64,000 nucleotides of DNA from Gemmatimonadota bacterium (GTDB lineage: Bacteria; Gemmatimonadota; Gemmatimonadetes; Longimicrobiales; Gaopeijiaceae). Each line of letters opens with the position of its first letter. The stretch's first letter is position 1. This document shows positions 15,649 to 25,354 of this stretch, one piece after another. The translations under genes and the position numbers were made by a program. Location: NCBI GenBank assembly GCA_022823365.1, contig JAJDXG010000056.1:62001-126000 (forward strand), read 5' to 3'. The notes below the pieces were generated by a model. That model made no database searches. It was given only the letters and a program-made list of their open reading frames with translations, and was not told where the DNA came from.

Positions 15649-15716
15649 TGCGGCTCGGTTTCGGAGAGGGAGGCCGGGCCGTGCTACCCCGTGGCACAAC
15701 GGGAGGAAATAGACTG

Positions 15717-16424
15717 ATGAGAGTACTGAACCGGTTGGCGCTGGCCGGGCTGGTGATGGCGCTGCCCTCGGCCGTACACGCCCAGTCCGAACAGGGCGCC
15801 TGGAGCGTCGAGGTATCTGCGGGAACCCAGATGTACGCCCCGTCGAGTTCGCTCATGAACAGCCCCATGCTCGCGCTGGAGGCGTTGTATCAGCTCACCC
15901 CGCGCATTGCGCTGGGGCCTGCGATTCAGTTCCACCGCGCCGACACCGACGGCAGCTTCTACGTGGCCGCCATCGACTTCGGTGCCGACAGCACCCGCAT
16001 CTACGAGGTAGGCCAGACGCTGAGCGCGCTCCACTACGGCTTGAACGCGCACATCAGCGTCATGCCGGGAAGCTCGCTGGATCCATATGTCGTCCTGGGC
16101 GGGGGCGGAGCCACGCTTTACCTGGATACGCAGGCCAACGACGACTTCCGGCGCGTGACCCATCAGATGGTGCTGGGGGGCGCGGGGGTGCGCTACGCGG
16201 TGACGGAGGCCGCCGGGATCCAGGTGGACGTGCGCGACGTCATCTACCGGGACTTCGACCGCGATGTCCTCAACCCGGTCGAGGAGCGACTCCGCAACTG
16301 CAAGAGCGACGGGACCTGCCGGTTCCCTGATGCGGAACGCACTGACCTCCCGGACAAACAGGACATGATCCACAACATCCGCCTGTCGATCGGGTTGACG
16401 TACGTCCCCGGACTCAACCGCTAG
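15717..16424 (+). CDS. Small outer-membrane beta-barrel protein, function unknown
   Basis: A 235-residue exported protein with signal peptide MRVLNRLALAGLVMALPSAVHAQ. The remainder alternates hydrophobic and polar residues in the manner of an OmpA/OmpX-like eight-stranded barrel (LDPYVVLGGGGATLYL, MVLGGAGVRYAVTEAAGIQVDVRDVIY). Two cysteines occur in a periplasmic or surface loop (NCKSDGTC). ATG 15717 is chosen because GGGAGGA precedes it and a signal peptide follows; the longer open frame from 15648 has neither. Fourth gene of the surface operon; its role there is unknown. Confidence 0.75.
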   Translation: MRVLNRLALAGLVMALPSAVHAQSEQGAWSVEVSAGTQMYAPSSSLMNSPMLALEALYQLTPRIALGPAIQFHRADTDGSFYVAAIDFGADSTRIYEVGQTLSALHYGLNAHISVMPGSSLDPYVVLGGGGATLYLDTQANDDFRRVTHQMVLGGAGVRYAVTEAAGIQVDVRDVIYRDFDRDVLNPVEERLRNCKSDGTCRFPDAERTDLPDKQDMIHNIRLSIGLTYVPGLNR

Positions 16425-16442
16425 CGGGCAGGAGGCGATCAA

Positions 16443-18218
16443 ATGAAAGCAGCACGCAAGCGAATCCGGCTGCACGCGGTGGGTGTCGCCCTGTGCGGCG
16501 CGCTCCTCGTGGCCGCCTGCGAGACCGACAACATTACCGACCTGACCGACGAGCGGCCGGTGCTCAAGATGACGATCGCGCCGGGGGATGCGGTGTTCCC
16601 CTCGGGCTCGGTCGCGCTCTCGAAGGCGGTCGTCTCCGGGTTCGATTTCTCGGTTCCGGACGGGTTCGACCGGGGGACGGGGGCGGGGGGGTTCTTCGGC
16701 CCCGTCGCCACCCCCATAGGTACCGCTCCAGCGGTGGACCTGGGGGGTTCGGTGCGTAATTCCTCCCAGGATCCCCGGCTGCCGGCCCTGCGAGAGGGCT
16801 CTGCGGCGTTGGGTACCCACTTCGGCCTGTTCGAACTGACCCTCTTTCTTCAGAACGGAGCTCCGGTAGGTTACTGGGATCTCTTCGGCGAGGTGCAGGG
16901 GCTCGAGCCCTCTACGGCCTATACGGTCGTGCTGGCCCGCATGACGCTGCAGGTGAACGGCGAGTTGGACCAGCATCAGGTTCTGACCGGGAACCCGGTC
17001 GACGAGCCGGACGAGTTGTCCTTCGCATCCGGCGAAACCGTCATCTACGGAGACGTCGCCTGCGATTTCGACCTGCAGGCTGGAATCACCCCGATCAGGG
17101 CCGAGATGAACCCGGTTGGCCTTGGTGTCGTCGAGACGAACGGGGCGGGCACCGGCGCTTTCGACTGCGTGCTGAGGGCCGTTCCCGGTGACATGTGGCC
17201 CGGACGAGCGGAGGGGGCCAACCTGTCGACGGCGGACGATTTCACGGCGGCGAATACGCCTTTCGGTTCCAACGAGACCGGCGCCATGGTTGGCCCCGGC
17301 CAGTTCAACTACCTGCTCCTGTACGAGGGAGCTCCGAGCGGGGGCGCCCTTCCGGCCGGCAGCCCCACCGTGCGCATGCAGTTGGGTCCCGACGTCGACG
17401 CCGACGGAAACGTCATCAACAACGCCATGGCGCCCTTCCCGGCCGGTGTAGTGCCCAACGCACCGGAGCTCTCCGGGGGAGCCAACTCCTTTGCCGCGCC
17501 GGGCCAGATCGACGTCACGCTGGAAGGCTTCTCGCCGCTCTCCGGCGGTTCGTACCAGCTTTGGCTGTACGACGCGGGCTCGGGTTCCTACTCCGCCGCG
17601 GACGCCACGTTCTACCCCGCGATGGACATGGACATGATGATGATGGGTTCCACCTTCTCGCCATCGTCGTCGGAGGACGTGTACCACGCCAAGATGGAAG
17701 TGTCGATGGATCAGAACTTCGGCGAGTTCACACACGTGGCGGTGAGCGCCGAGTCCGGGCAGGCGAGTTCGCCGACCGGGGGGCCCTTCCTGTTCCAGGA
17801 GTACCTGACCTCCGACAACCTCATGCAGCAGGGGGCCATGACGTTCGGCCACCTGGGTTCGGATGGGGAAATAGACCCCTTCTTCGGTGGTGGCTCGGGC
17901 TCCGGGTCGTTCTACGAGAGCTCGCTGCTGGTAGAACTCAACCGGCTGCCGGCGCCACCTCCGGGAATGCACTACCAGAGCTACCTCGCCGCCGTCTCGC
18001 CCACGGGCGTCGGCACTTCGTCCCGTGGCAACACGATCACGCTGGATGCCCGCGGAAACGGGATGGATCGGCTGGAAGCGGCGCAGGTCGGCGATTTCGC
18101 GTCTTTCACCCACTATCTGGTGGTGCTGGAGCCGGACGGCATCACGTCCATTACCGAGATGTGGGTGCAGCAGAGCGACGACTACAGGAACAAGTTCAAG
18201 GAGTTCTTCGGAGGCTGA
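16443..18218 (+). CDS. Lipoprotein with repeated beta-sandwich segments, function unknown
   Basis: Exported lipoprotein of 591 residues: a basic N-terminus, hydrophobic stretch and lipobox LLVAAC with acylated Cys26. At least three segments look alike: VQGLEPSTAYTVVLARM, LEGFSPLSGGSYQLWLYDAG and LNRLPAPPPGMHYQSYLAA. They resemble the beta-sandwich of the anti-sigma-K (RskA) C-terminal domain, which is common in extracytoplasmic proteins; I infer this by eye only. A methionine and aspartate cluster (MDMDMMMMG, near residues 396-404) could bind metal. AGGAGG precedes the ATG. It is the last gene of the operon and is followed by a strong terminator. Confidence 0.75.
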   Translation: MKAARKRIRLHAVGVALCGALLVAACETDNITDLTDERPVLKMTIAPGDAVFPSGSVALSKAVVSGFDFSVPDGFDRGTGAGGFFGPVATPIGTAPAVDLGGSVRNSSQDPRLPALREGSAALGTHFGLFELTLFLQNGAPVGYWDLFGEVQGLEPSTAYTVVLARMTLQVNGELDQHQVLTGNPVDEPDELSFASGETVIYGDVACDFDLQAGITPIRAEMNPVGLGVVETNGAGTGAFDCVLRAVPGDMWPGRAEGANLSTADDFTAANTPFGSNETGAMVGPGQFNYLLLYEGAPSGGALPAGSPTVRMQLGPDVDADGNVINNAMAPFPAGVVPNAPELSGGANSFAAPGQIDVTLEGFSPLSGGSYQLWLYDAGSGSYSAADATFYPAMDMDMMMMGSTFSPSSSEDVYHAKMEVSMDQNFGEFTHVAVSAESGQASSPTGGPFLFQEYLTSDNLMQQGAMTFGHLGSDGEIDPFFGGGSGSGSFYESSLLVELNRLPAPPPGMHYQSYLAAVSPTGVGTSSRGNTITLDARGNGMDRLEAAQVGDFASFTHYLVVLEPDGITSITEMWVQQSDDYRNKFKEFFGG

Positions 18219-18245
18219 CGTCGGCGCCGGCATGCCGCGACAACC

Positions 18246-18282
18246 CGCGCCCGCCGCCTGCAGGGGTGGCGGGCGCGTTTGT
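18246..18282 (+). terminator. Intrinsic terminator of the surface operon
   Basis: A perfect 10-bp stem, CGCGCCCGCC (18246-18255) with GGCGGGCGCG (18268-18277), has a 12-base loop and is followed by TTTGTT. It lies 28 bases after the lipoprotein stop codon and closes the 7345-18218 gene cluster. Confidence 0.8.
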
Positions 18283-18375
18283 TGCATCGGGGATTCCCGG
18301 ACGGGAGCCGGTGCCCCCGGCACTTGCCCCGGGTGATAGATTCCCTGCGATGCGGCAACTGGTGGAGTCCTGGAG

Positions 18376-21138: not shown

Positions 21139-22758
21139 ATGGCCGACGCCGCCGACCGCACTCCTTCGGCGCAAGGTCCGCCGCCCTCCACCGCCGCCGC
21201 ATTACTGACAGCGGCCGCCGCCGCCGATCCTGGCCGGCCGTTTCTGCTGTCCGGCGACGGCATGATGACCTACGCACGGGTCGAGAGCCAGGCCCGTGAC
21301 CTGGCGGCATCCCTCCACCACCTGGGCATCGAGCGGGGCGAGCGTCTCGCGGTCCTGCTGCCCGCCTGCCCCGAGTTCATCGTGGCGGTTTTCGCGGCGG
21401 CCAGACTCGGGATCGTCGTGGTACCCCTGAATCCCCGTCTCCCGCCGCTGGAGCTGCGCTACCGCCTCCGTCACTCGCAGGCCGTGGCCGCAGTGACGCC
21501 CGAGATGTTCGAGGGGATCGACTACCTGCAGTTCGCCGAGGACGTGTTGGAGGAGCTGCCGGAATTGGGCTACGTGATCACAGTCGGCGAAGAGGATCTC
21601 TGGTACGACGACCAGATCTACCAGTTTGAAGACCTGGTCTCGGCGGGACGGGGAAAGAAGTGTCCGCGTCCGGACGTCGCCCCGGACGACCTCTTCGCGC
21701 TTCTCTACACCGCCGGAACCACCGGAAAGCCGAAGGGCGTGGAGCTGACCCACGGCAACCTGGCGGTACCCGCGCGCCAGACCGTCGCGGAGCTTAGCGT
21801 AACTTCCACGGACCGCGTCATCGGGGCCAGCGACATCTTTCACGCCTTTGCGCTCGGTCCCGCCATCCTCGGCACCGCGAGCACGGGTGCGTCGATCGTG
21901 CTGCAGGAGAGCTTCGACGGCGATGAGGCGCTGGATCTGATCGAACGCCACGGCGTCACGGTGCACTACGGGGTGCCCACGCACTTCCTGACGGAGCTGT
22001 ACGCGCAGCGGCGTATGCCGCGCGACCTCTCGAGCCTGCGCGGCGGGATCGTCACCGGGGGTCCCATCGGGGATCCCGCGCTGCGCCATGTGCGCGAGGA
22101 GCTCTGCCCGAACCTGCAGGTGGCATATTCACTCACCGAGGCAGGATCCGTCCTCTCCATGACTCGCGCCGAGGATCCTCCCGAAAAGCAGCGCTTCACC
22201 GTGGGACAGCCGCTGAGCGACGTCTCCGTGCGCGTGTGCGACGGCGACGGATCCGTGCTCCCGGTCGAGAGCCTGGGGGAGATCCGGGTTCGCGGCCCGG
22301 GCGTGATGCGCGGATACTACCGACAGCCCGACAACACCCGCCGGCACTTCGACGCCGACCGGTTCCTGCACACCGGCGACATGGGCATCGTGGACGAAGA
22401 CGGCTACCTGCATTTGGTAGGTCGCCAGGGTGATGTTATCATCAAGGCTGGATTCGATGTGTATCCCCGGGAAGTCGAGAACAGAATCGCGACCCACCCG
22501 GCGGTGCGGGACGTAGTGGTGGTGGGCCTGCCCGACGAACTCCTGGGCGAGGCCGTCTGCGCCTGCGTGCACATGATCGAAGGGGCCATGGTCTCGGCGG
22601 AGGATTTGAGAGCGTGGTGCCGCCCCTCGCTGGCCACCTACAAGGTGCCCGATCGGGTCCACTTTTTTGACGAGTTCCCGGCGACGGCGGCCGGGAAGGT
22701 CGGACGCGGAGAACTGGCTCGCCTGTTGCGGGCCGAGGTCCTGCACCGACACGGCTAG
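21139..22758 (+). CDS. AMP-binding acyl-CoA synthetase/ligase
   Basis: ANL-superfamily enzyme that activates a carboxylic acid with ATP and transfers it to CoA. The 539-residue chain has the P-loop-like motif [16 protein letters not shown] near residue 195, the adenylate-binding YSLTEAG near 332, TGDMGIVDEDGYLHLVGR near 413 and the C-terminal catalytic lysine in TAAGKVGRGEL near 518. The layout is that of long- or medium-chain fatty-acid or aryl acid ligases; the acid cannot be named. Starts 23 bases after aroB in the same direction. Confidence 0.88.
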   Translation: MADAADRTPSAQGPPPSTAAALLTAAAAADPGRPFLLSGDGMMTYARVESQARDLAASLHHLGIERGERLAVLLPACPEFIVAVFAAARLGIVVVPLNPRLPPLELRYRLRHSQAVAAVTPEMFEGIDYLQFAEDVLEELPELGYVITVGEEDLWYDDQIYQFEDLVSAGRGKKCPRPDVAPDDLFALLYTAGTTGKPKGVELTHGNLAVPARQTVAELSVTSTDRVIGASDIFHAFALGPAILGTASTGASIVLQESFDGDEALDLIERHGVTVHYGVPTHFLTELYAQRRMPRDLSSLRGGIVTGGPIGDPALRHVREELCPNLQVAYSLTEAGSVLSMTRAEDPPEKQRFTVGQPLSDVSVRVCDGDGSVLPVESLGEIRVRGPGVMRGYYRQPDNTRRHFDADRFLHTGDMGIVDEDGYLHLVGRQGDVIIKAGFDVYPREVENRIATHPAVRDVVVVGLPDELLGEAVCACVHMIEGAMVSAEDLRAWCRPSLATYKVPDRVHFFDEFPATAAGKVGRGELARLLRAEVLHRHG

Positions 22759-22872
22759 GTCCCTGGCTTCCCAGCCCCGCTCCACGACCGATCGCGGCGT
22801 GCGCCGCCGGAGAGAGGGTGGACCGGAGAGGGAAGCTCGGCGGCCGGAACTTCGGTTGCGAGAGAACATCGG

Positions 22873-24717
22873 ATGATCAATCACTTCACGCGCGCCCCTC
22901 ACGTCGAAGGGGCGGGCCCGATCCTGTCTTCCGCGCCCAACGCGGCGCTGCTCATCGACTTCGACAACGTGACGATGGGCATCCGGAGCGATCTTTCCAA
23001 AGAGATCAAGACGCTCCTCAACTCCGACATCATCAAGGGCAAGGTCACCGTCCAGCGGGCGTACGCCGACTGGCGGCGGTATCCCCAGTACATCGTGCCG
23101 CTCTCGGAGGCGTCGGTCGACCTGATTTTCGCTCCCGCCTACGGCAGTTCGAAGAAGAACGCCACCGATATCCGCATGGCCATCGACGGCATGGAGCTGG
23201 TCTTCATTCGTCCGGAAATCGGAACCTACATTCTCCTCACGGGCGACAGCGATTTTTCCAGTCTGGTCCTGAAACTCAAGGAGTACGGCAAGTATGTGAT
23301 CGGGGTCGGGATCCAGGAATCGAGTTCCGACATCCTGGTCCAGAACTGCGACGAATACTACTCGTACTCGTCCATCGCCGGTCTCCAGAAGGCCTCCGTC
23401 GGGGACAAGGGCAAGTCGGTGGACCCCTGGCATCTCGTCAGTGAGGCATCGAAGAAGATGATCGAGCGCGGCGACGTGATGCGCTCGGACAGGCTCAAGC
23501 AAGTGATGCTGGAGATGAGCCCGGGCTTCGAGGAATCCAGGTACGGGTTCAGCAAGTTCAGCAGATTCCTTGCCGAAGCTGCCGGCCGCGGCCTCGTGCG
23601 CCTGCGCAAGCTGGAGAACGGACAGCACGAGATCCTGGCCGCAGGGGGGCGTCAGCGAGATGCCGCGGCCACCCGCGCCCCTCAACAGCCGGGCGCGCGC
23701 AGCCGGGCGGGGGCGCCCGGTGGTCCGGAACGCGGGCGGGCGGCTGCAGCCTCCGGCGAAGCGGAATCCCCGAAGAGCGAGCCGCGCCGCGAGAGCGCGT
23801 CCGGAAACGGTACTCCGAGCACGGACCCGCTGGCCGACGCGTACGAACTCCTGCGCCGGGCGCTGGCGGAAATCAGCCCCGACAACAGCTGGACACGGGA
23901 TTCGGATGTGAAGCGCCGCATGCTGGATCTCGACCGGAAGTTCGATGAGACCGGGCTCGGGTTCAGCAAGTTCAGCAAATTCCTGACGCAGGCCCACGAG
24001 CACGACATCGTGCGCATCCGCCGGAACGAAGCGGGCAACTTCGTCGTGCGGCTTCCGCGGTCGCACCGGGCGCGCAGGGGCGACGCTGCCTCCGCGGGAT
24101 CCCGGGAGGAGAGCGCAACGCCCGCCGGCGCGGATGGAGCGGCATCCGGCGCCTCGCCGACGGCTGCGGCCGGTACGCCGCGCGCGGCCCCCGAAGCGGG
24201 GGAAGGGGATGCCGCGTCCGCGGCGGTCGATGAGGCCGCACCTGCAGAGCCGGCGGAGGCGGCGGCGTCGCCCTCGGAGAAGAAGGGAGGGCGCCGCACA
24301 CCGCGTTCGCCCCGTCAGCGCATGTGGCGCCAGAGTCAGCGGGCCCGCGAGCGCGACAGGGATGAACGCGCCGCCGAGGACGGGCGTGCGGACGCGAAGC
24401 CCGCGTTCGATCCCGCCCGCCTCGGACTGCCCACGGACTCCAGCGCGGTGCAGCGTTACCTGGCCAACCGCTACCGGGGCGTGGGCGAAAAAACCGCGGA
24501 ACGCCTCATCGAGGCCTTCGGCGACCGGGTGTTCCACGTGCTGCACGACTCCCTGGACAAGGTAAACGGGGTGCTGCCGCGCAATCGGGCGGCCAAGCTC
24601 GCGGAAGCCTGGCAGGACGACTTCTCCCGCCGGTCCAGGGCGGAAGCGAAGGCCGACAGACAGGCAACCGCCACGGCGCGCCGGACCCGTCTGGGACGGC
24701 GCCGCGGGTCTTCCTGA
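22873..24717 (+). CDS. NYN-domain RNase-like protein with two OST-HTH/LOTUS domains and a C-terminal HhH domain
   Basis: A 614-residue cytoplasmic protein, probably acting on RNA. The N-terminal NYN/PIN-like nuclease domain (about residues 22-175) keeps its acidic residues: LLIDFDNV with Asp29 and Asp31, and TGDSDF with Asp125 and Asp127. Two OST-HTH/LOTUS modules follow, at about 185-255 and 317-395; both contain the near-identical core GFSKFSxFL. Between and after them run Ala/Gly/Arg-rich low-complexity linkers. The last part (about 525-585) reads [17 protein letters not shown] and continues as a tandem helix-hairpin-helix, like those in RecD2 and other DNA-binding proteins. LOTUS domains bind RNA or G-quadruplexes. 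This combination with an HhH tail is unusual. Confidence 0.85.
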
Positions 24718-24739
24718 CCGGGCACGCCCCGACGAGCGG

Positions 24740-25354
24740 ATGGTGACATCCCGTACTGCCGTGAACGGGGCGCTCGCCGGCCTCCTGTCGGGCGGCGCGC
24801 GCGCGGTGGCGCGCGACCTGCTCGGCTGGGAAGTGGAGTCGACCGTCGGCGGCTTGAGGACATCGGGCCGCATCGTGGAGGTGGAGGCCTATACCGGACC
24901 GGACGATCCGGCGTCCCACGCCGCCGAGCGCATCGGCCGCACCCGCCGCAACGCCTCCATGTTCGGTCCCGCCGGCATCGCCTACGTCTATCTCATCTAC
25001 GGCATGCACTGGTGCCTGAACGTCGTGACCGGCCGGGAAGACTATCCGGCCGCGGTGCTGGTGCGCGCGCTCGAGCCGGTGGCGGGTGAGGCCACCATGG
25101 CGGCGCGGCGGGGCCGGCACCGCGATCTGTGTTCCGGACCGGCGCGCCTCTGCCAGGCGCTGGGCGTCACCGGAGCGCTCGACGGGCACCCGCTCGACCG
25201 GGCGCCGCTTCGCCTCGTTCCGCAGAGGCCGGTTCCGGCAGGGAGCATCGCGCGGTCCCCGCGCATCGGCGTGACCCGGGCGCGCGAGCGCGAACTGCGT
25301 TTCTTCCTCCACGGCAATCCTCACGTTTCCAGGCGCACAGGCGGAACCCGATGA
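24740..25354 (+). CDS. 3-methyladenine DNA glycosylase, AAG/MPG family
   Basis: Removes alkylated and deaminated purines from DNA as the first step of base-excision repair. The 204-residue protein shows the AAG-family core: [19 protein letters not shown] with the catalytic Glu, [41 protein letters not shown], and [13 protein letters not shown]. The length is right for bacterial members. It follows the NYN-LOTUS gene by 22 bases and overlaps the antiporter start by ATGA. Confidence 0.93.

Follow-up and report, generated by a model that had tools for sequence, protein, structure and literature searches.

A NYN-LOTUS protein of Gemmatimonadota with a predicted RecD2-type helix-hairpin-helix tail

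The window analysed here, a stretch of 64,000 nucleotides from a Gemmatimonadota genome, encodes a 614-residue protein in which a NYN nuclease domain is followed by two LOTUS (OST-HTH) domains and, at the C-terminus, by a helix-hairpin-helix (HhH) domain that profile comparisons show to be homologous to the N-terminal HhH domain of the helicase RecD2. The nuclease is near-universal in the sampled phylum, and the HhH tail is limited to particular lineages. We propose, with confidence that is about evenly balanced, that the protein is a MARF1-like housekeeping endoribonuclease of structured RNA, which in one lineage would have captured a RecD2-type domain that tethers it to nucleic acid, DNA being the probable ligand. 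The features on which this proposal draws are given below in window positions.

21139-22758, + strand: acyl-CoA ligase-type gene, conserved upstream neighbour (PRK06187, 4e-120, below the model's cut-off)
22873-24717, + strand: gene for the NYN-LOTUS-LOTUS-HhH protein, 614 amino acids (open reading frame, Pfam, NCBIfam, profile-profile comparison)
22942-23364, + strand: predicted NYN nuclease domain, residues 24-164 (Pfam, 6.3e-24; VIA Z 20.1 to the mouse MARF1 NYN domain, 5yaa)
22957-22965, + strand: codons of the two acids on strand 1, D29 and D31, in IDFDN (identical in 81/81; 22/22 in alignment A5)
23167-23169, + strand: codon of D99, likely active-site acid (81/81; invariant in alignments A4 and A5; MARF1-like spacing)
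23245-23253, + strand: codons of D125 and D127, in GDSDF (81/81; invariant in A5)
23416-23640, + strand: LOTUS/OST-HTH domain 1, residues 182-256 (Pfam, 21.9 bits; model to TDRD7 LOTUS 3rco, Z 9.2)
23641-23817, + strand: linker 1, rich in R, G, A and P, poorly conserved (median identity 18.6%, 44 loci; pLDDT ~40)
23824-24057, + strand: LOTUS/OST-HTH domain 2, residues 318-395 (Pfam, 25.7 bits; TDRD7 LOTUS 3rco, Z 10.8)
24070-24408, + strand: linker 2, poorly conserved (median identity 16.2%, 12 loci)
24418-24630, + strand: RecD2-type HhH domain, residues 516-586 (NCBIfam, profile-profile comparison; pLDDT 88-96 over residues 511-600)
24634-24714, + strand: short basic C-terminal tail of 27 residues, of which 8 are R and 1 is K (composition)
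24740-25354, + strand: 3-methyladenine DNA glycosylase gene, conserved neighbour (NF002003); joint action with the nuclease is putative

The GC contents at the three codon positions of the open reading frame at 22873-24717 (0.67, 0.53 and 0.84, in a window of GC 0.69) fit a genuine coding gene in a genome of high GC. Very long antisense open reading frames (up to 914 amino acids) lie on the minus strand over coding genes, at window positions 15684-18323, 22129-24873 and others; these were rejected as genes, their length being the chance expectation at 69% GC. A scan of genome contigs for relatives matched 421 stretches, 347 of which encode relatives, and the best 80 loci were taken for comparison.

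The NYN domain is recognised by Pfam (PF01936, 85.6 bits against a curated cut-off of 24.2), with an AlphaFold model of residues 20-263, built on 22 aligned sequences including viral relatives (mean pLDDT 84.6), having as its top Foldseek matches VPA0982 (2qip, 5.8e-9), mouse MARF1 (5yaa, 6.5e-7), and human MARF1 (6fdl, 1.9e-6). Alignment of the same model with VIA-align gives Z scores of 20.1 for 5yaa (rmsd 2.4, 146 aligned), 19.3 for 6fdl, and 17.4 for 2qip, followed after these NYN rows by TDRD7 LOTUS at 9.2 and 9.0 and by other folds from 8.9 down. As modelled, the domain has the PIN-like NYN fold. An earlier AlphaFold model built on 23 rows, from which the pLDDT values of the linker and HhH are taken, left the NYN domain unfolded, perhaps because the rows were too alike there.

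A reading made from the sequence only had named Asp29, Asp31, Asp125, and Asp127 as likely catalytic residues, and all four are identical in each of the 81 aligned sequences (the window protein and the 80 loci), none of the acids being lost; D99, which that reading overlooked, is identical in all 81 as well. These five residues and D105 are also invariant in A5, the 22 rows of which include viral-contig relatives at 22-27% identity, and the position of D31 is occupied by D or E in six plasmid relatives. The NYN domain of MARF1 is a proven endoribonuclease, for which PMC6294520 gives the acids D358, D426, D427, and D452, and the spacing of D29, D99, and D125 (70 and 26 residues) may be set beside that of MARF1 D358, D426, and D452 (68 and 26, from the numbers in PMC6294520). 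Because both this spacing and the fold match MARF1, D99 is likely an active-site acid at the position of D426/D427, an assignment made by spacing and fold rather than by side-chain superposition. RNase activity is a prediction that we consider likely to hold.

Both LOTUS domains are found by the Pfam model OST-HTH (PF12872), which matches two stretches of the whole protein (E = 3.7e-10, 40 bits), with LOTUS1 falling just below the cut-off of 23.8 bits and LOTUS2 lying above it when each is taken separately. In the models, LOTUS2 aligns with the LOTUS domain of TDRD7 over 77 residues at an rmsd of 1.8, and the LOTUS1 residues align with the same structure (Z scores above). The sequence-only reading had described two nearly identical OST-HTH cores; two LOTUS modules are indeed present and share the motif GFSKFSxFL at residues 225 and 363, but identity over the complete domains is 34% (23/67). 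LOTUS domains, bacterial ones included, are reported to bind G-quadruplex RNA (Ding 2020, as cited in PMC12247748), and a study of Egl describes single-stranded RNA binding by LOTUS and complexes of LOTUS-like domains with stem-loop localization signals (PMC13186709). By analogy with the LOTUS domains of the former report, those of the present protein may bind G-rich or G-quadruplex RNA.

The kinship of the tail with RecD2 is evident from the NCBIfam model TIGR01448 (RecD2), which matches residues 519-583 (E = 6.3e-7) and is matched by 23 of 23 family members. The match covers positions 68-135 of the 713 in the model and scores 27.9 bits, the cut-off being 500, and the SF1B helicase core is absent from the protein, these being the only TIGR01448 positions matched. 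Profile-profile comparison of the tail (A2, 23 rows) with A6, which comprises the N-terminal domains of three RecD2 proteins of this phylum, gives a probability of 98.8 and an E-value of 7.1e-17, with 36% identity over 66 columns, compared with a probability of 1.1 and an E-value of 0.048 for an unrelated control profile. Furthermore, the tail as a tblastn query returned 90 plasmid records, 11 of the 15 listed being named 'ATP-dependent RecD-like DNA helicase' and four having no gene name, and among solved structures the tail profile best matched an XPF endonuclease (3.1e-6), with weak matches including the ribosomal protein uS13m (E = 0.24). A significant profile match for the HhH end is thus provided by NCBIfam, though Pfam misses the domain: none of its HhH families exceeds its cut-off, HHH_5 giving an E-value of 0.13 with the whole protein and, as the best Pfam HhH family with the tail alone, 0.0096 (16.8 bits against 27), and PF01367 matching the tail alone weakly (E = 0.029). 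The fold comparison that paired LOTUS2 with TDRD7 shows no HhH structure among the matches listed, the rows being filled by LOTUS and other winged-helix structures. Of the hairpins, the first has the canonical form (Y-[RK]-G-V-G-x-K-T-A-E) and the second is degenerate (VLPxxRA in the family, VLPRNRA here), such that the tail has one canonical hairpin rather than two. A chance HhH motif was rejected as an explanation, given the 66-column alignment with RecD2 and the presence of the tail in 77 of the 80 best loci, the remaining three of which stop at a contig end before the HhH. The comparisons show homology with the RecD2 N-terminal HhH domain across the whole of this small domain, beyond the GxG motif, in agreement with the resemblance to RecD2 that had been noticed from the sequence.

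The spacing between the modules varies, with the NYN-LOTUS-HhH frame of one genome (G136) comprising only 463 residues and its tail nearly abutting LOTUS2, so the fixed parts of the protein are its four modules and not the linkers. In the linkers of several orthologues (L173, L182-L189) RG/RGG repeats are abundant, recalling the RNA-binding, condensate-forming regions of eukaryotic germ-granule proteins, though high GC may suffice as their cause.

The modules differ in how strongly they are constrained. Over 74 loci (the best 80 minus the near-relatives L003-L008), the NYN domain has a median identity to the window protein of 90.7% (81.5-94.7), compared with medians of 62.7% for LOTUS1, 49.4% for LOTUS2, 49.3% for the HhH (70 loci), 16-19% for the linkers, and 45.8 to 68.2% for seven flanking genes (24 to 66 loci each). 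Set against ribosomal protein uS12, the NYN median is 92.0% versus 87.0% in seven genomes of family f1, and the NYN identity is 86.0% versus 71.1% in one genome of family f2, with eight genomes of the more distant family f3 having an NYN median of 75.3%, below the 82.9% of uS12; the uS12 alignment overran the true start in G017, G018, G028, and G031, lowering the uS12 values, and G018, G028, and G031 are among the genomes counted. On this comparison the NYN domain changes at the pace of a ribosomal protein within the family, but not everywhere beyond it. Such slow change points to an important job for the predicted nuclease.

The NYN profile (A3) matches 232 of 249 sampled genomes of the phylum, including 215 of the 227 of good quality, and the NYN-LOTUS gene is single-copy in nearly every genome searched; the 17 genomes lacking NYN include every one of the six sampled from family f10, which belongs to another class. 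The tail profile A2 matches 96 of the 249, distributed (as counted by eye) over 58 of 61 genomes in f1, 9 of 12 in f2 and f3 together, 18 of 18 in f7, 4 of 5 in f9, two in f5, and 5 of 6 in f10, with none in f4, f6, and f8. NYN and HhH lie in one reading frame in 80 of these 96 genomes (76 from the listed rows and four more on inspection), a count that leaves out f10, G068, G183, G029 (E = 8e-4), G024, G032, G148, G151, G240, and the split cases G008, G085, and G209, the copy of one genome being unreadable as its stretch is partly N. The tail matches of f10, G068, and G183 were rejected as fusions, the open reading frames having no NYN at the four inspected of these seven loci; they are RecD2 or RecD2-like, TIGR01448 being over its cut-off in five f10 genomes and G068 and scoring 448 bits in G183. 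RecD2 is rare in the phylum sample, the loci L178-L181 being those of f10, G068, and G183. TIGR01448 exceeds its cut-off in six of the 249 genomes, none of them among the 80 with the NYN-HhH protein, and its sole match in the host genome is the tail of the NYN-LOTUS protein; because RecD2 is this rare, its absence from the fusion genomes carries little information.

In a tree of NYN plus LOTUS1 from 28 sequences, all nine tail-less proteins fall to the same side of a single branch (support 98/93), and the tail label requires a single change on the tree, with none of 500 shuffles as low. The tree being unrooted, gain and loss of the tail are indistinguishable here. Tail-less orthologues in f4, f5, and f6 have NYN and LOTUS1 in common with the tailed proteins, which indicates that the tail is dispensable for the core job, and tail-less relatives end in basic stretches that are often RG- or K-rich. 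The tail is in effect a natural experiment, with close relatives that do and do not carry a domain derived from a DNA helicase.

The gene sits within a recurrent order of aroB-like, acyl-CoA ligase, NYN-LOTUS, 3-methyladenine glycosylase, transporter, and etfB-like genes, found in 73, 70, 80, 65, 58, and 62 of the 80 loci respectively (contig ends not excluded), with the names aroB, transporter (NhaC-like), and etfB assigned by eye. The glycosylase gene that the sequence-only reading placed 22 bases downstream is borne out by its coordinates and by NF002003, which its open reading frame matches at 204 bits against a cut-off of 182. In 65 of the 72 loci able to show it, the glycosylase gene is estimated to start between -107 and +106 nt relative to the NYN stop, the gene being missing from the other seven despite more than 5.8 kb of downstream sequence, and the glycosylase adjoins five of eight tail-less genes at loci uncut by a contig end. 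From this neighbour and the tail it had been proposed that RNA or G-quadruplex recognition may be coupled to R-loop removal or DNA repair, together with the glycosylase, and the RecD2-type tail, the glycosylase directly downstream in most loci, and the lack of overlap between the 80 NYN-HhH genomes and the six RecD2 genomes are all in keeping with such a role. We nonetheless consider this coupling improbable, as the host genome retains both RNase HI and RNase HII, each of which also occurs in 36 of 39 relatives, the glycosylase is missing from seven loci and occurs beside tail-less genes and so does not track the tail, synteny extends over a whole stretch of unrelated genes such as the aroB-like gene, and the rarity of RecD2 leaves its absence saying little. 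Removal of RNA:DNA hybrids in place of a missing RNase H was rejected, since with both RNases H present no such rescue is indicated, and a glycosylase operon tied to the tail was rejected on the same adjacency with tail-less genes. The adjacency looks like old synteny, within which the glycosylase and nuclease genes are perhaps co-transcribed, and it does not link the tail with base-excision repair.

Four records titled Gammaproteobacteria (L003, L004, L008, and L049) have the same gene order as the Gemmatimonadetes records, L003, L004, and L008 also being at least 90% identical to the window, and these metagenome-assembled genome titles are probably wrong. Outside the phylum the tail was sought on plasmids and viral contigs, and the fusion may exist elsewhere; among 29 NYN open reading frames from 28 such loci none carries an HhH. 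In none of 168 plasmid records does the match extend over 80% of the query, the 40 rows listed covering its first part only, and no viral relative was returned with the full protein, A3, or A2 as query. Short NYN relatives are encoded on 20 viral contigs. The short plasmid NYN-LOTUS genes of Novosphingobium and Aeromonas (L194:716-988 and L195:1051-1338) adjoin Phd/YefM antitoxin and RelE/ParE toxin genes. The NYN-LOTUS family may have a mobile branch. The NYN-LOTUS genes of Caballeronia and Eleftheria (L192 and L193) encode one LOTUS domain and a long basic tail, with 33-35% identity to the window protein, the highest among the plasmid relatives listed. Small relatives on plasmids and viral contigs, two of the six inspected plasmid ones lying beside toxin-antitoxin genes, would suit an active nuclease aimed at foreign nucleic acid, like some NYN/LOTUS proteins of conflict systems; we regard this as highly improbable for the present protein, and rejected a defence gene on the synteny and on the search for known anti-phage defence, in which no PADLOC family matched at E up to 0.1. 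Near-universal presence, fixed synteny with metabolic genes, and very slow evolution are, moreover, the opposite of what defence genes show.

In the chromosomal housekeeping endoribonuclease that we propose, the LOTUS pair would select structured or G-rich RNA, which would then be cut by the metal-binding acids D29, D31, D99, D125, and D127 of the NYN domain, with the disordered basic linkers giving the modules reach to different sites. The RecD2-type HhH would grip the nucleic-acid backbone irrespective of sequence, most likely that of a DNA duplex, and the tail-bearing nuclease would thereby act near the chromosome, on nascent or DNA-associated transcripts, possibly as they are transcribed. 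Nucleic-acid binding by the tail is predicted and appears likely, with descent from RecD2 making DNA the more likely backbone to be bound, although on the choice of DNA over RNA as ligand our judgement is evenly divided. HhH domains can bind RNA or protein too, and for this reason DNA tethering may be wrong. The degenerate second hairpin also tells against the proposal.

The protein might instead be a decay or processing enzyme of the RNA side only, with the HhH gripping structured RNA, or binding the ribosome or another protein partner, and with no role for DNA, a possibility that we think somewhat unlikely. Tail-less orthologues with basic, RG-rich ends do the presumed core job, uS13m appears weakly among the structures matched by the tail profile, rRNA-binding HhH-like domains exist, and NYN conservation above that of uS12 within the family suggests that the partner is itself highly conserved. 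In B. subtilis, the ribosome is the site of action of a NYN nuclease, Rae1/YacP. Its structure, 5MQ8, is named in PMC6294520. Against this stand the nearest homologues of the tail, the DNA helicase RecD2 (7e-17) and XPF (3e-6), and the want of a known partner. A fuller version of the tethered nuclease, which we hold tentatively and rate as unlikely, would make it a class-wide core RNase and bacterial analogue of MARF1, with a rate of evolution as low as that of a ribosomal protein. In one lineage it would have become anchored to the chromosome by capturing the DNA-gripping domain of a helicase its genomes lack, and would there trim or degrade structured RNAs as these are made on the DNA template. 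Given its near-universal presence in the class, its single copy in nearly every genome, and an NYN constraint exceeding that of uS12 within the family, a cultured member could reveal the role of bacterial NYN-LOTUS proteins.

No publication on an HhH-bearing NYN-LOTUS protein or on a Gemmatimonadota NYN protein was found in the openly licensed literature, in which we also recognised no experimental study of a bacterial NYN-LOTUS protein. Of known proteins, MARF1 (Limkain b1) of mammals resembles ours in its NYN fold (Z 20.1/19.3), its acids, and its combination of NYN with several LOTUS domains; ours differs in being bacterial, in having two LOTUS domains rather than the eight of human MARF1, and in its HhH tail, and the RRM characteristic of MARF1 does not turn up in the window protein even when Pfam E-values up to 10 are allowed. 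VPA0982 of Vibrio parahaemolyticus (2qip) has the NYN fold in common with it (Foldseek 5.8e-9, Z 17.4), the solved chain being NYN alone, without LOTUS or HhH. The N-terminal HhH of the SF1B helicase RecD2 is homologous to the tail, with the helicase domain found in RecD2 only. The FEN/5'-3' exonuclease and XPF families offer an analogy of layout, a nuclease and an HhH-type domain in one chain, but here more than 340 residues, the two LOTUS domains among them, separate NYN from HhH, and homology of the nuclease to XPF is not claimed. A NYN or LK-nuclease with one or two OST-HTH domains has been a standard bacterial layout since 2010 (Anantharaman, Zhang and Aravind, PMC2848206), and the N-terminal nuclease and one or two OST-HTH domains of that bacterial family are as in the present protein. 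The RecD2-type C-terminal HhH sets ours apart, the terms 'HhH' and 'helix-hairpin-helix' being absent from the main text of PMC2848206. The bacterial NYN-LOTUS layout is thus known, and what appears to be new, as far as the openly licensed literature shows, is the variant with a RecD2-type HhH tail.
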